Shown here: piece after piece, positions 1,299 through 32,063 of the stretch
Layout of the letters: the number at the start of each line of letters is the position of its first letter
Numbering within the stretch: the first letter of the stretch is position 1
NCBI GenBank assembly: GCA_947166155.1
Contig: CAMVDC010000010.1
Coordinates: forward strand, 1-33,541
Direction of reading: 5' to 3'
DNA: 33,541 nucleotides
Source of the DNA: an uncultured Prevotellaceae bacterium
Lineage (GTDB): Bacteria > Bacteroidota > Bacteroidia > Bacteroidales > Bacteroidaceae
Position numbers and translations under genes: made by a program
Notes under the pieces: model-generated
Seen by the model: only the letters and a program-made list of their open reading frames with translations
The model's database searches: none
Told to the model about the DNA's origin: nothing

Positions 1299-2345
1299 CT
1301 AACTAATCTCTCCAGCAATGGCAATCTCCATGCGGCGGCGCACTTCGTCGGCATCGAGTCCTTGGCCGAAAAGTACCATCAGTTTTGCCACAGCTGCCTC
1401 GACGGTCATATCCCTGCCGCTCACCACTCCTGCTTCGCGCAGGCGTATTCCCGTCTGATAAAGTCCCATCTCGACGCTGCCGCTCTGACACTGAGTGATA
1501 TTGACCACCACCTTGCCTGCCTCGCTCGCACTGCGCAAAGCATCGATGAACCACGACTTGCTCGGGGCGTTACCCGACCCGAAGGTGCGAAGCACGATGC
1601 CGCGGATGTCGGGCATGCGAAACACATTCTCGATCAGTTGGGGGCGGATGCCTGGGAAGAGAGTGAGGGCCAGCACGCGGTTGTCGAGGGTGCGGTGTAC
1701 GCTGAGTTTTTCATCACTCATGGGTTGATGTATTAGGGCATCGTTGTAGTTGATATTGATGCCTGCACGCGCCAGGGGCGGATAGTTGTAGGACGCAAAG
1801 GCATTGAACTTCTCGGCGTTCTCCTTCGTGGTGCGGTTGCCTCGGTAGAGGTGGCTTGCGAAGTAGATGCACACTTCGGGCACCCGCGGACGGCCGTCCT
1901 GTGTGCGTGCCGCTGCTATCTCGATGGCTGTGATAAGGTTTTCGCGTCCGTCGGTTCGCATGGCTCCGATTGGCAGCTGACTGCCGGTGAGCACCACGGG
2001 TTTTGTCAGGCCCTCGAGCATGAAACTGAGAGCGCTGGCAGTGAATGCCATGGTATCGGTGCCGTGCAGGAGTACGAATCCGTCGTAGTGGTCGTAGCGG
2101 GTGGATATGATGTCGGCCAGGTTCACCCACAGTTCGGGCGTCATGTCGGACGAGTCGATTGGCGGGCGGAACTGATAGTTGTCGATAACGTAGTCGAAGA
2201 GGCGCAACTCGGGTATATGTTCGCGAATGCCATTGAAGTCGAACGGCTCCAAGGCTCCCGTCTCGGCATTCTTCATCATGCCGATAGTTCCGCCGGTGTA
2301 GATGATGAGTATTCGTGGTTTCATACGTCGAGTCTTATTCTCCAT
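1299..2345 (-). CDS. ansA: type I L-asparaginase
   Basis: IYTGGTIGM...LLHGTDTMAFTASALSFMLEGLTKPVVLTGSQLPIGAMRTDGRENLITAIEIA: signature motifs of the asparaginase/glutaminase family. Confidence 0.93.
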   Translation of the reverse strand: MENKTRRMKPRILIIYTGGTIGMMKNAETGALEPFDFNGIREHIPELRLFDYVIDNYQFRPPIDSSDMTPELWVNLADIISTRYDHYDGFVLLHGTDTMAFTASALSFMLEGLTKPVVLTGSQLPIGAMRTDGRENLITAIEIAAARTQDGRPRVPEVCIYFASHLYRGNRTTKENAEKFNAFASYNYPPLARAGININYNDALIHQPMSDEKLSVHRTLDNRVLALTLFPGIRPQLIENVFRMPDIRGIVLRTFGSGNAPSKSWFIDALRSASEAGKVVVNITQCQSGSVEMGLYQTGIRLREAGVVSGRDMTVEAAVAKLMVLFGQGLDADEVRRRMEIAIAGEIS

Positions 2346-3502
2346 TCCTTGGGATAGAGGTTGTTGGCACGTGTGCCTATATTCTTAGCTTGTCCGAGCG
2401 GAAGGCCGCAGTACGCGATGGTCACGATGCCGCGAGGTGCATCGGCCGCAAGGCGTATGGCATCGCCGTGGAGGTAGTGAAGGGCTGTGGTGCGGTCGAC
2501 AGTGACAAGAGGCGGAACAGGTGCAGAATGTACTTCATTCCGCTTTTCCCTCCCTACATGTTTCGGCTGCGCAATCGCTACTTCTCCCTTCTTCCTCAGC
2601 ACCGCACAGAAGAATCCCTCGCCTCGCACCCTGTGGGGCATGAAGTGAGCGCAGGGGAATGGTGCATGTGGCAGCAAGTTGCCCATGATGTTCCACTCCG
2701 TTTTCGCATCGACGGGCAGGATGTCGGCACCCAGTTCGCTGGCAATCCATGCCACGTTTTCTTCGTTTTCGCGGGTGTTGTAGGTGCAGGTGCTGTATAT
2801 CATGATGCCACCAGGCGTGAGGCACGGCCATATATCGGCCACGATGTCGCGCTGACGGCGGCTACACATGTCGACAAGTTCGTCGGTCCACTGAGTGCGT
2901 GCCTCGTCGTCTTTGCGCATCATCCCCTCGCCCGAACAGGGCACATCACACAGGATGAAGTCGTATTCGGCACCCATCTGGGCAAATGCACGTGCTTCGT
3001 GGCTGGTCACCTGGACGTTCGCTCCACCCCATTTCGTCATGTTTTCCTGAAGTATGCGTGCTCGCTTCGCCACCACTTCGTTGCACGTGAGCATCGACCC
3101 CAGCGGCAGGCACGACTCGAGCAAAGTAGATTTTCCGCCGGGAGCGGCACAGAGGTCGAGCGCGCGTACGGGCCGAGTGCCTATATATATATTAATAAGG
3201 TGTGCCACAAACATCGACGACGCTTCCTGCACATAGTATGCTCCGGCATGCAACAGGGGGTCGAGTGTGAACACAGGGCGCTCGGGCAGGTAGTAACCGT
3301 CGGCACACCACGCCACCTGCTCATCGGTGTTCAGGTGTAGGTGGGTATCGAGATCGGCCATTATTTCGGCCGATATCTTACGTCGGTTCAGCCTGATACT
3401 CACTGGGCAAGGCATGTCCATCGAAGCCACAAACCGCTCGTATTCATCGGGCGGCAGCAGCCGTTGCATCTCGTTTACAAAGCCAGCAGGTAGTTCCATC
3501 AT
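2321..3502 (-). CDS. NOL1/NOP2/Sun (RsmB/RsmF) family rRNA (cytosine-C5)-methyltransferase
   Basis: RALDLCAAPGGKSTLLES...FILCDVPCSGEGMMRKDDEA..W...ICSxRQxxI..DIWPCLTPGGIMIYSTCTYNTRENEENVAWI: SAM motif I plus PCSG and TC motifs. Confidence 0.93.
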   Translation of the reverse strand: MMELPAGFVNEMQRLLPPDEYERFVASMDMPCPVSIRLNRRKISAEIMADLDTHLHLNTDEQVAWCADGYYLPERPVFTLDPLLHAGAYYVQEASSMFVAHLINIYIGTRPVRALDLCAAPGGKSTLLESCLPLGSMLTCNEVVAKRARILQENMTKWGGANVQVTSHEARAFAQMGAEYDFILCDVPCSGEGMMRKDDEARTQWTDELVDMCSRRQRDIVADIWPCLTPGGIMIYSTCTYNTRENEENVAWIASELGADILPVDAKTEWNIMGNLLPHAPFPCAHFMPHRVRGEGFFCAVLRKKGEVAIAQPKHVGREKRNEVHSAPVPPLVTVDRTTALHYLHGDAIRLAADAPRGIVTIAYCGLPLGQAKNIGTRANNLYPKEWRIRLDV

Positions 3503-3740
3503 TCGTATTCAGTATTGTTTGTGGCCACAAAGATACGAAAAAACCACCAAACGACACGCATCCAACCCACACAAACTGCAACGACAAAGCACGAAAGAGC
3601 GAGGACGAACGTCAGAATACACTTACACCTACACATCGATTTCGCTGTGCATACGCATAATTTTAGCTGCGAGTACGCAGTAAAGACCTTGCGAATGCAG
3701 AGTAGTTTTTTTGCGCCGCAGTTCTCGTCCCCCTCAGTAT

Positions 3741-3818
3741 CTCTAAGGAGTATTATGAGAAAAGGAGAACGAGCCACACCCATGCGGATGCACTCCCTGA
3801 CTCGCATGACTCCTTAGA
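3741..3818. repeat. 78-bp element copy 1 with 10-bp terminal inverted repeats (tctaaggagt...actccttaga)
   Basis: Identical by eye to 3827-3904, separated by 8 bp. Internal inverted repeat catgcg/cgcatg. Contains a 20-codon ORF (3755-3817) behind TAAGGAG. Confidence 0.9.
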
Positions 3819-3826
3819 TATTAATT

Positions 3827-3904
3827 CTCTAAGGAGTATTATGAGAAAAGGAGAACGAGCCACACCCATGCGGATGCACTCCCTGACTCGCATGACTCCT
3901 TAGA
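3827..3904. repeat. 78-bp element copy 2
   Basis: Exact second copy of 3741-3818, 86-bp period. Confidence 0.9.
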
Positions 3905-4002
3905 AATAAATACTCTAATTCTTCATGTTTTTACCGCTTGAGCGGCATAGATGTTTCAAACTTACGACATTCTTTTTCAGATAACGGTAAGGAATACAGA
4001 GA

Positions 4003-4947
4003 TTAATGCGAAGTAACAGCATTTTTATCACCTCTTGCATACAACCGCGCAACGATTGCGCCGCTTATGTTGTGCCACACACTAAACACGGCGCCAGGAA
4101 TGGTGGCCATGGGATAGGCAGCGAAGTGGAGTGTGGCAAGGCTCGATGCCAGCCCGCTGTTTTGCATGCCCACCTCTATGCTTATGGCCCTGCGCTTGGC
4201 ATCGCTGAGGTGCAAGAGTCGGCCCACACTCCATCCCAGTGCCAATCCGCACAGGTTGTGGAGCACCACGACAAGGATGATGATGAAGCCTCCGGTGAGC
4301 AGTTTCTGCGCGTTGGCAGCGATGATGATGAGCACGATAAAGGCAATGGATAGCGACGAGAGTGCAGGCAGATATGCTATGGTGCGCTCGGTGAAACGCG
4401 GCCACAGGCCCTTGACTATCAGTCCCACCACAATGGGCAGTATGACCACCCACAGTATGCTCAGCAACATGCCAGCCACATCGACATCGACACTCTTGCC
4501 TGCCAGCAGCCACACCAGCAACGGTGTCAGCACCGGTGCCAGCAGTGTGGATGTGGCTGTCATGCCTACCGACAGGGCGAGGTCGCCTTTTGCCAAGTAG
4601 GTAATCACATTGGATGCCGTACCGCCCGGGCAACAGCCCACAAGCACCACCCCTACGGCTAATGCCTCGTCGAGATTGAACAGGCGCGAGAGCACAAATG
4701 CCAGCAGCGGCATGATGGTAAACTGAGCCACACAGCCAATAATGACATCCTTCGGCCTACTGAATACTACCTTGAAATCCTCAATCCTGAGCGACATGCC
4801 CATGCCAAACATAATAACACCCAGCAGCGGGTTGATGATGGTGGGTTTCAAACCGCCAAACACACCGGGGAAGGCAAGAGCCACTACTGCCGACGCCAGC
4901 ACCAGCACCCCCATATAGTCGGAAATAAGTTTACAAAGTCGTTTCAT
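4003..4947 (-). CDS. bile acid:sodium symporter (BASS) family transporter
   Basis: Multi-TM protein with FGMGMSLRIEDFKVVFSRPKDVIIG...VLVGCCPGGTASNVITYLAKGDLALSVGMT...ISIEVGMQNSGLASSLA, diagnostic BASS motifs. Confidence 0.92.
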   Translation of the reverse strand: MKRLCKLISDYMGVLVLASAVVALAFPGVFGGLKPTIINPLLGVIMFGMGMSLRIEDFKVVFSRPKDVIIGCVAQFTIMPLLAFVLSRLFNLDEALAVGVVLVGCCPGGTASNVITYLAKGDLALSVGMTATSTLLAPVLTPLLVWLLAGKSVDVDVAGMLLSILWVVILPIVVGLIVKGLWPRFTERTIAYLPALSSLSIAFIVLIIIAANAQKLLTGGFIIILVVVLHNLCGLALGWSVGRLLHLSDAKRRAISIEVGMQNSGLASSLATLHFAAYPMATIPGAVFSVWHNISGAIVARLYARGDKNAVTSH

Positions 4948-4979: not shown

Positions 4980-5109
4980 CGATTTTTCCTCAACATGCAT
5001 GCAATCCGATGTCGCAAAATGAGGTCAAACGGCCGAATTCCACCCCTGTCGGCACACAAATCAGCAGTCACCTCGCCAGGCATGCTCACAGATAGCTGTG
5101 GGCAGGGTG

Positions 5110-5200
5110 AAAAATGAGTGCGCACTCGCGGGCCCGAGAGTGCGCGCTCGCAGGCCCGAGAGTGCGCACTCGCAGCCCCGAAAGTGCGCACTCGCAGACA
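5110..5200. repeat. palindromic REP-like array: four 22-bp units containing GAGTGCGCACTC
   Basis: Units at 5116, 5138, 5160, 5182 with 22-bp period. Each core is a 12-bp palindrome or a variant of it, spaced by G/C-rich GCRGGCCCGA. Homologous to the array at 26840-26930. Confidence 0.9.
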
Positions 5201-26765: not shown

Positions 26766-26839
26766 GCTTTTCTCCACCATAAATCCCACTTAATTTACTC
26801 CGACTCCACCCCCATCCACAGGTACTTGTAGAGGGGTGT

Positions 26840-26930
26840 AAAAATGAGTGCGCACTCGCAGGCCCGAGAGTGCGCACTCACAGGCCCGAGAGCGCGCACT
26901 CACAGCCCCGCGAGTGCGCGCTCATTTTTG
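26840..26930. repeat. palindromic REP-like array, second copy: four 22-bp units, bounded by aaaaatgag...ctcattttt
   Basis: Units at 26846, 26868, 26890, 26912. 84-bp ungapped alignment with 5110-5193 gives 8 mismatches by hand count. Confidence 0.9.
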
Positions 26931-26987: not shown

Positions 26988-27118
26988 TCGCCTCCGTTCG
27001 GATGTCCCCCTCGCCTTCGTCCTTTTTTCCTCTTCTCTTCGTTCGGATGTTCCCTCGCCTCCGTTCGGATGTCCCCTCGCCTTCGTCCTTTTTTTCCTCT
27101 TCCCTTCGTTCATCTGTA
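26988..27118. repeat. pyrimidine-rich imperfect tandem repeat, about 67-bp period
   Basis: cctccgttcggatgtcccc(c)tcgccttcgtcctttttt at 26991 and 27058; cgttcggatgt occurs three times. Confidence 0.75.
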
Positions 27119-27301
27119 CCCTCCATCCGTCCTTTTTTACATTCGCGCCCCGTCAGTGTTCGGCGGTTTTCCCGCCGAATTATCCATCCGCCCCGCCAGT
27201 GTCCTGCCCTTTTGTCATCTTTTCGCGTCATTTTGTCTTATTTCCTACATTGGAACAAAGTTTGAACTGCACCATTACAGAAACGAAAGGAGAACCAAAC
27301 C

Positions 27302-29591: not shown

Positions 29592-30728
29592 ATGATACCT
29601 ATCACAGAACTTAACAAGACAGAATACCTCGTCCTCTTCGCTGCCAACCTCGTGTTCATCGTGACACACCTCTACGGCTGGCTGCTGAAGTGGTTCTACA
29701 AGCCGCAGGCCTACGGCGAGAACTTCGTGCAACTGTTTCCTGCCTACAAGGCTGTGGGGTGGCTCTATCTGTTGCAGATGTTAGAGCTGCCATACCTGCT
29801 GCACATCGGGCAGGACGACACCCTGCTCTACGCCAACAGTTTTGCAATGCTTGTCTATCCACTGCTGTTGCTGGCCATGTGCGAGGGTTATTTCTTCCCC
29901 GATGTTCACCGCCGCTGGCGCGACTACATGCTGTTCATGCCGTCGATCGCAGTCCTCATCCCGCTACTGCTACAGGCCATAGGGCTAATCATCCTGCCTG
30001 AGTGGCACCGCACTGCAACCTTCATCGTGGTGGGTATGCTGTTCATCTGGCAGTTCGGCCTCACCATCAGCATGGCTCTGCGCATCGGCCGTGCCATACG
30101 TCGGGTGAACGAAGACACATACGCCGATATCGACGACTTCCCGACACGCACGGGCGAGAAGATGCAGTGGTTGCCCACATGCGTGTGCCTGCTCATGGCC
30201 ATCAACTTCTTCATCGACGACCCCGCGGTGAAGGCCTGTCGCGATGTCTTCTTCACCATTTGCAACGTGTGGTTCTGCATCTACACCCTCAACCCGCGGC
30301 GAAAGGCATTCGAAAAGGAAGAGAAGCCCCTGCCCCAACCAGTTCCTGTGAAAGACGCACAGGGAAATGGTGGCACCCCCTCCCGTCTCAGCGACGAGCG
30401 CTACAGGGAATTGAGCCAACAGCTGGAGTCCCTGCTCACCGACGAGCACATATTCACCGAGCAACACATCACAGCCGACATCCTGATGCGACGTCTCGGC
30501 ATCAACGCCAACTACCTCACCGAACTAATCCAGCGCAGCGGCTATGCTTCGTTTTACGACATGATTTGCCAGCACCGCGTACGCCATGCTATCGCCCTCA
30601 TCCACCAACACCCCGACCGCCTGCTGGCCGACATCGCCGACAGCTGCGGCTTCTCCTCACCATCCAGCATGGCCAAGGCCTTCGCCTCGCAAGGCAAGCG
30701 CTCCCCCTCCACCTACCGCCACGGTTGA
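29592..30728 (+). CDS. membrane-anchored AraC-family transcriptional regulator
   Basis: About 6-7 N-terminal hydrophobic segments, then an AraC-type DNA-binding domain: ITADILMRRLGINANYLTELIQRSGYASFYDMICQHRVRHAIALIHQHPDRLLADIADSCGFSSPSSMAKAFASQGKRSPSTYR. Confidence 0.88.
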   Translation: MIPITELNKTEYLVLFAANLVFIVTHLYGWLLKWFYKPQAYGENFVQLFPAYKAVGWLYLLQMLELPYLLHIGQDDTLLYANSFAMLVYPLLLLAMCEGYFFPDVHRRWRDYMLFMPSIAVLIPLLLQAIGLIILPEWHRTATFIVVGMLFIWQFGLTISMALRIGRAIRRVNEDTYADIDDFPTRTGEKMQWLPTCVCLLMAINFFIDDPAVKACRDVFFTICNVWFCIYTLNPRRKAFEKEEKPLPQPVPVKDAQGNGGTPSRLSDERYRELSQQLESLLTDEHIFTEQHITADILMRRLGINANYLTELIQRSGYASFYDMICQHRVRHAIALIHQHPDRLLADIADSCGFSSPSSMAKAFASQGKRSPSTYRHG

Positions 30729-30805
30729 CCTATGCTGCAACACCGTTGCAGTCAACCTATGCTGCAACACCGTTGCAGTTAACCTACGCTGCAACACCGT
30801 TGCAG
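30726..30805. repeat. three tandem 27-bp units each carrying CTGCAAC-ACC-GTTGCAG palindrome
   Basis: Palindromes at 30735-30751, 30762-30778, 30789-30805. Consensus TYRACCTAYGCTGCAACACCGTTGCAG. Confidence 0.95.
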
Positions 30806-30848
30806 CAAAAAAGACAAAGAACAAACAAAAAAAACAGGAAAAAGAACT

Positions 30849-32063
30849 ATGGACAAAGAAGCCTTCGAGAAGCACAAACCCTTTGCCGGCGAGAAGAAGC
30901 CCTCCATGCTTCGCCGACGCATAGGCCACGACTATGAATCGCGACGCATCTACCTCATCACCATGACGGTAGAGGGCCGCCGTCCCCTGTTGGGCACCCT
31001 CGTAGGCGATGCCGATGCACACGATGACAGCCCCGAGGCACCAAGGGTGGAGCCATCTCCCTTAGGATTGGAAGTACAACAATGCTGGTTCTCCATCCAT
31101 GAGCACTATCCCGAAGTTGAGGTACTCTCACTCCAGCTGATGCCCGACCACCTGCATGGCATCCTCTTTGTCACCCACCAGATGGAGCAGCACCTGGGCA
31201 TGGTCCTCAAAGGCTTCAAGGCCGGCTGCAACAAAGCCTACCGTCAGTTCCCCTATGCTGCAACAATGTTGCAGCAAAGAGGAACCAATGGAAAGGACGA
31301 CCGCACCCACGGCTTCCTCTTCTCTCGCAACTACAACGACCACATCCTCGAAGGTGCTGGCGAACTGGAACGTTGGTTCCAGTATCTGCACGACAACCCC
31401 CGCCGCCTTGCCATCCGTCGCAGCCACCCCGACTACTTCCGCGTGCGCTTCGACATCGCCATCAAAGGACAGACCTATGCCGCCATCGGCAACCGCTTCC
31501 TACTTGACAGTCCCGAGAAGGTACAAGTGCAATGCTCACGCCGTCTCACCGACGAGCAGGTGGCAGAAATCGTCAGCACCATGCTGGCCAAAGCTCACCG
31601 CGGGGCGGTGCTCGTCTCTCCCGCCATCTCCAAGGGTGAGCAGGACGTGATGCGGGCAGCACTCGATGCACGTCTGCCCCTCATCTTCCTAACCCCATGG
31701 GGCTTCAATGACTTCTCACGCCCCGGCCACCAATACTACGAAGCCTGTGCCGAAGGACGCTTCCTCATCCTGGCCCCATGGCCCCACGAGAACCAACGCA
31801 TCCCCCTCACCCGCAACATGTGTCTCGCCCTAAACACCATGGCAGCCACCATCTGCCAGAAGTATGCACACCTCCCTCTGCCTCTGCCCCCGTCCCTCCA
31901 CTCCTCTGCCTTCCGTTTCTCCGCCTTCCGTCCCCTCTGCCTTCCGTCCCTCTGCCTTCCGTTCCCTCTGCCTTCCGTTCCCTCTGCCTTCCGTCCCCTC
32001 TGCCTTCCGTCCCTCCTCCACCTGTCTTCTATGCTGCAACACCGTTGCAGCAAAGGAAGCTAA
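30849..32063 (+). CDS. REP-associated Y1/HUH transposase-like protein (RAYT) with C-terminal DprA/SLOG-like domain and VNTR-encoded tail
   Basis: Y1_Tnp-like: RRIYLITMTVEGRRPLLGTL...VEVLSLQLMPDHLHGILFVTHQMEQHLGMVLKGFKAGCNKAYR...FSRNYNDHILEGAGELERWFQYLHDNPRRLA (HxH HUH motif). C-terminus: GAVLVSPAISKGEQDVMRAALDARLPLIFLTPWGFNDFSRPGHQYYEACAEGRFLILAPWPHENQRIPLTRNMCLALNTMAATIC. Confidence 0.82.
   Translation: MDKEAFEKHKPFAGEKKPSMLRRRIGHDYESRRIYLITMTVEGRRPLLGTLVGDADAHDDSPEAPRVEPSPLGLEVQQCWFSIHEHYPEVEVLSLQLMPDHLHGILFVTHQMEQHLGMVLKGFKAGCNKAYRQFPYAATMLQQRGTNGKDDRTHGFLFSRNYNDHILEGAGELERWFQYLHDNPRRLAIRRSHPDYFRVRFDIAIKGQTYAAIGNRFLLDSPEKVQVQCSRRLTDEQVAEIVSTMLAKAHRGAVLVSPAISKGEQDVMRAALDARLPLIFLTPWGFNDFSRPGHQYYEACAEGRFLILAPWPHENQRIPLTRNMCLALNTMAATICQKYAHLPLPLPPSLHSSAFRFSAFRPLCLPSLCLPFPLPSVPSAFRPLCLPSLLHLSSMLQHRCSKGS
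31258..31274. repeat. in-frame palindrome copy inside the RAYT gene (CTGCAAC-AAT-GTTGCAG)
   Basis: Flanks cctatg...caaa match the intergenic units; encodes FPYAATMLQQR in the linker between HUH and the YNDH region. Confidence 0.9.
31905..32015. repeat. 15/16-bp pyrimidine-rich VNTR (TCTGCCTTCCGTYCC(C)), about 7 copies
   Basis: tctgccttccgtccc / tctgccttccgttccc / tctgccttccgtcccc etc. with mixed 15- and 16-bp unit lengths, inside the RAYT 3' end. Confidence 0.9.
32034..32050. repeat. palindrome copy at the 3' end of the RAYT gene (CTGCAAC-ACC-GTTGCAG)
   Basis: tctatgctgcaacaccgttgcagcaaag; same core and flanks as the upstream array. Confidence 0.95.

Follow-up and report, generated by a model that had tools for sequence, protein, structure and literature searches.

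The hairpin pair and its genomic context

The window analyzed here (the whole stretch of DNA under study, 33,541 bp from an uncultured Prevotellaceae bacterium) contains a pair of hairpin repeats between a sodium/bile-acid-symporter-family gene (4003-4947, minus strand), located upstream of the pair, and an RsmF-type methyltransferase gene (2321-3502, minus strand), located downstream of it; 99 bp separate the pair from the former gene and 240 bp from the latter. The two hairpin cores, of 77-78 bp each and 86 bp apart, occupy positions 3742-3818 and 3828-3904 of the plus strand and, as claimed in the initial sequence-only reading of this DNA, are identical to each other. They are parts of an 86-nt direct repeat (3740-3825 and 3826-3911; 98% identity, with both differences within the linker), for which Tandem Repeats Finder reports a period of 86 and 2.1 copies over positions 3740-3918. 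The copies are separated by an AT-rich linker, tattaattc (3819-3827), and the second copy is followed by a conserved right tail remnant, aataaatactctaattcttcat (3905-3926), common to the flank of other copies of the repeat (aataaattctctaattcttgataat); repeat coverage at the locus spans 3738-3926. The array has two different linkers (tattaatt and aataaata), which is evidence against a simple assembly duplication. In G003, a close relative represented by a Bacteroidaceae MAG from roe deer reticulum, the rsmF and symporter genes are found on separate contigs, and the intergenic DNA of the window locus yields no alignment.

Other tandem repeats were observed in the same window. A 22-bp repeat, GAGTGCGCACTCGCAGGCCCGA, is present at 5105-5200 and 26834-26929, both intergenic, and is related to sequences elsewhere in the genome; further tandem repeats are located at 26988-27130 (period 22/67) and at 31903-32015 (period 16/31), the latter at the 3' end of a RAYT-type transposase gene.

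Architecture and conservation of the repeat unit

The unit is an imperfect 26-bp inverted repeat flanking a variable loop of 8-27 bp, with edges TCTAAGGAGT...ACTCCTTAGA, and each of its ends carries the motif TCTAAGGAGT-N5-GAG-N4-GGAG. In copy 1, which represents the long form, the left inverted repeat (3742-3767, plus strand) matches this motif with zero mismatches and the right one (3793-3818) matches it on the minus strand; in copy 2, the corresponding matches are at 3828-3853 (plus) and 3879-3904 (minus). Nowhere else in the window is the end motif found. The long form is about 77 bp, with a loop around CACACCCATGCGGATGCA, and the short form is about 65 bp. The terminal inverted repeats (TIRs) noticed in the sequence-only reading exist, but the length of 10 bp given there is too short, the arms being 29 nt long and 72% complementary; the stem comprises 10 + 3 + 4 bp and closes a long loop. 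The inner arms catgcg/cgcatg proposed at the same time are not the helix that we found, the inner helices being GAG/CTC and GGAG/CTCC. Both arms are near-invariant among the copies, in contrast to the variable loop and N5 and N4 spacers. Homology drops at the TIR edge, and similarity in the flanks is mostly low except for a TC before the unit and an A-rich start after it.

A dispersed repeat family restricted to one genus lineage

The BLASTN search for further copies of the 78-mer, proposed together with the original observation, produced 31 matches in the own genome, a draft of 2.79 Mb with 85% completeness and breaks at repeats. Absence of other copies anywhere, combined with absence of transcription, had been named as a refutation of the original observation; the family is dispersed in this genome and in two relatives. 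The own genome encompasses at least 21 units that are complete, together with approximately 12 truncated ones, on 21 contigs, G003 has about 9 copies, and G015, another member of the genus, has one, whereas the end-motif scan of the 16 sampled relatives detected no copies in the 14 other genus members. With up to one mismatch, the end motif has 47 matches in the own genome (25 forward and 22 reverse), 21 in G003 (11 and 10) and 2 in G015 (1 and 1), compared to 0 matches of a reversed-pattern control in the three carrier genomes and one in the other genomes. An exact-pattern scan of public genomes matched only the MAG RGIG4776 (roe deer reticulum), the contigs of which correspond to G003; outside the genus, a scan of 399 genomes from the family detected nothing beyond scattered matches with one mismatch, and plasmids, phages and viral contigs contained no match for the repeat. 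Almost all listed clusters of copies are outside open reading frames, the two overlaps both involving short, doubtful ORFs, and copies are frequently located at contig ends, positions at which an assembly would lose longer repeats. The one-mismatch match C48:3174, which has an orthologue in G003 and lacks an inverted partner, was set aside as a chance match or a relic.

Long palindromes (TTTAAGGAGTTAAGGGAGTGAAGGAG) were also observed in G171, a genome from another genus of the family (L162, 1501-1634; L157, 1370-1504). The arms of these palindromes have the same GGAGT-N5-GAG-N4-GGAG spacing, and they are possibly distant kin of the hairpin repeat.

Tandem arrays and composite inserts

The window copies are each other's nearest relatives, and the next nearest copies share 92% identity with them, which supports the recent local duplication suggested from the sequence. 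The hexamer CTCTAA starts copy 1 (3741-3746) and copy 2 (3827-3832) and recurs in the right tail (3913-3918), all on the plus strand and at a spacing of exactly 86 bp; slippage or template switching between these direct repeats, which bracket the hairpin, would account for the local pair. The arrays C45 and C108 consist of unlike units, the nearest relatives of which are at other loci, so the arrays are not all simple duplications.

Tandem arrangement is frequent in the family, and many copies are embedded in mosaics with other palindromic modules. At C72, a rhaB-type kinase gene and rhaA are separated by a composite insert that includes two hairpins and measures about 300 bp; in G015 and G003, the composite is missing, and the orthologous gap is about 20 bp. 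At the site in G003 orthologous to C131, the outer hairpin repeat is present and this unit is absent. Such presence/absence differences between species show that composites have been gained or lost. Where sites were compared, the hairpin was embedded in composite repeats and did not form a clean insertion by itself, so the family may have spread through recombination of larger composites.

Among the adjoining palindromic modules (L068, 4560-4920; L071, 8700-9157; L073, 4850-5475), GATGCGCCGAGCATC and CACCCAG..CTGGGTAG recur beside the hairpin and form mosaics with it. A separate high-copy repeat, ATTTACTATTTACTGATTTACTATTTAC...CATCCGG (L069, L084 and L167), immediately precedes a start codon in at least two instances; it is present at many places in G003, G015, G004 and G013, and genomes across the genus contain dozens of matches each.

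Search for a mobilizing enzyme

None of the 31 units has a target-site duplication (minimum length, 2 bp) directly adjoining its ends. A search of the own genome (85% of which is represented in the draft) that allowed up to 3 mismatches detected no long element bounded by these ends, and all matches with up to 2 mismatches belong to short elements or fragments, apart from the isolated C48 match; in the incomplete drafts of G003 and G015, no autonomous element with the same ends was found with up to 1 mismatch. A single RAYT-type transposase gene (30849-32063) was identified, 27 kb from the hairpin pair in the window; its NCBIfam match is below the cut-off, so the name is likely rather than certain. 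This gene is flanked by its own unrelated palindrome, CTGCAACACCGTTGCAG, the copies of which are spaced identically on a G003 contig (C75). The palindrome has 4 exact copies and one internal copy, all confined to the RAYT gene, with no dispersal elsewhere, and on these grounds the hairpin was rejected as a RAYT substrate. The RAYT-like gene also has a long C-terminal extension and three tandem 27-bp palindromic repeats upstream (region 30728-32050), and its palindrome is found both inside the gene (31258-31274) and at the 3' end (32034-32050).

These searches bear directly on the possibility that the copies are fragments of longer transposon ends, i.e., a classical MITE derived from a DDE insertion sequence, the full copy of which is missing from the draft. 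Such an origin would fit the imperfect TIRs, which are 26 bp long and combine a 10-bp terminal block with GAG/GGAG blocks further inside, as well as the frequent position of copies at contig ends. Given the lack of target duplications, of a full-length copy in the three carrier genomes and of matches in plasmids, phages and viral contigs, we consider it unlikely.

RNA structure and coding potential

The core folds better than all 200 of 200 dinucleotide shuffles on each strand (z-scores of -4.8 on the plus strand and -5.3 on the minus strand; -33.5 kcal/mol on the minus strand), in agreement with the stable folded unit predicted at the outset. The covariance analysis of homologs proposed as a check revealed no compensatory changes at the paired positions of RNAalifold's own structure, and no Rfam family was found at the gathering score, the miRNA, snoRNA and CRISPR models from a permissive scan all being below their own cut-offs; thus, the test for structured RNA detected neither covarying helices nor a known family, and the suggestion of a tandem sRNA is not supported. 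No intrinsic terminator was called at the element, and a T-run is absent. Sequence conservation of the arms in the absence of compensatory changes suggests that they are recognized by a DNA-binding enzyme rather than selected for RNA structure; this pattern would be expected of a protein-binding end and not of a selected RNA helix, though after a recent expansion covariation would also have had little time to arise.

A different interpretation is that the repeats are a functional array of RNA or DNA sites, either a transcribed hairpin that stabilizes mRNA or attenuates transcription, or a binding site for a nucleoid or regulatory protein, as in BIME-like elements. The strong fold on both strands, the intergenic location and the orientation of the element flanks (27 facing 3' gene ends vs 16 facing 5' ends) speak for such a role, but the 3' bias is weak and comes from a rough ORF call, and neither the covariation data nor the terminator search provides support. 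Moreover, the repeat is missing from 14 of the 17 genomes of the genus, which implies that it has no conserved role at given genes. An array of this kind appears unlikely, and the repeat has no demonstrated function for the neighboring symporter-family and rsmF-type genes.

The sequence-only reading also pointed to a 20-codon ORF (ATG...TAG), which is indeed found in both window copies, and raised the possibility of a duplicated small peptide with a Shine-Dalgarno-like TAAGGAG followed by ATG (MRKGERATPMRMHSLTRMTP). The reading frame is not conserved among the copies: 17 of the 31 units have no ATGAG start, the other 14 encode 13-24 codons and are mostly frameshifted or stop early, and the 20-codon frame is kept in four units only, two of which are the window pair. 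The TAAGGAG that precedes the ATG belongs to the inverted end and is mirrored at the opposite end, and a peptide gene is extremely improbable, despite an ATG and a stop in both window copies and two others. The ORF is an incidental by-product of the repeat, and a tempting small ORF with a Shine-Dalgarno-like site inside such a repeat is a warning for small-protein annotation.

The most likely nature of the repeat

The family is dispersed in the intergenic DNA of one Bacteroidaceae genus lineage and has no conserved coding content. The pair in the window is best interpreted, with a probability of about 75%, as tandem copies of a non-autonomous, hairpin-forming interspersed repeat of approximately 60-80 bp that is restricted to this genus and resembles REPINs and MITEs. 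The original suggestion of a MITE-like element holds insofar as the repeat is dispersed, intergenic, bounded by TIRs and recently amplified; the target duplication and the partner transposase were not found. The conserved inverted ends are probably recognized by a transposase-type enzyme supplied in trans, and we infer that this enzyme would act on the folded or the duplex unit, in a REPIN-like or MITE-like manner.

A more far-reaching interpretation, which we regard as rather doubtful, is a new kind of self-dispersing hairpin of rumen Bacteroidaceae that is moved by a non-RAYT enzyme without target duplication, nests in the loops of palindromes and builds composite inserts directly before start codons, as between the rhaB-type and rhaA genes. 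If so, such hairpin inserts would act as mobile 5' leaders or operon spacers. For the non-autonomous hairpin repeat as such, the results add a clearly delimited, recently amplified palindromic repeat family for a poorly studied gut genus, and its exact end motif can be used by others to seek the moving enzyme.

Comparison with known repeat systems

The hairpin repeat is a family that is unnamed so far as our searches reached and belongs to a familiar kind of bacterial repeats. The BIMEs, or mosaic elements, of enterobacteria are mosaics of several small palindromes in intergenic clusters; the hairpin mosaics resemble them in this organization, in a different phylum.

With regard to REPINs and MITEs, the repeat deviates from each in at least one tested feature. 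REPINs are REP doublets that form hairpins (PLoS Genet 2011, PMC3116915), and the window repeat is similar to them in having two conserved inverted ends and a less conserved, variable spacer that fold into one hairpin, in its intergenic location, in the presence of tens of copies and in being non-autonomous (PMC3116915). Unlike in REPINs, no RAYT gene is flanked by the hairpin repeat, the RAYT gene of this genome carrying CTGCAACACCGTTGCAG instead, and the arms are not small palindromes with a GTAG-type tag: GTAG and CGTC are absent, there is no evident hairpin within an arm, and compensatory changes are not seen. The TIRs, the lack of coding capacity and the multiple copies are shared with MITEs, which are about 100-400 bp long (PMC3116915), but the core of 60-80 bp is shorter, with only composites reaching about 300 bp, and none of the 31 units has a target-site duplication.

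Like the GTAG- and CGTC-tagged REPs and the RAYT-linked TIR repeats (PMC3733652), the hairpins are short palindromic repeats that are clustered and arranged in tandem with flanking DNA. They differ from the tagged REPs in having no tag at their ends and a stem of 10 + 3 + 4 bp with a long loop. RAYTs may carry flanking long TIRs that also form dispersed families (PMC3733652), but the RAYT gene in this genome is flanked by another palindrome. Compared by description, the BrickBuilt MITE of Porphyromonas gingivalis (PMC4596501) differs in that it is built from a 23-nt minisatellite with a leader, a tail and inverted ends, whereas the tandem unit of the hairpin repeat is the whole 86 bp; the two are alike in their occurrence in Bacteroidales, exclusively intergenic location, approximately 20 copies, small inverted ends, tandem internal structure and narrow host range.
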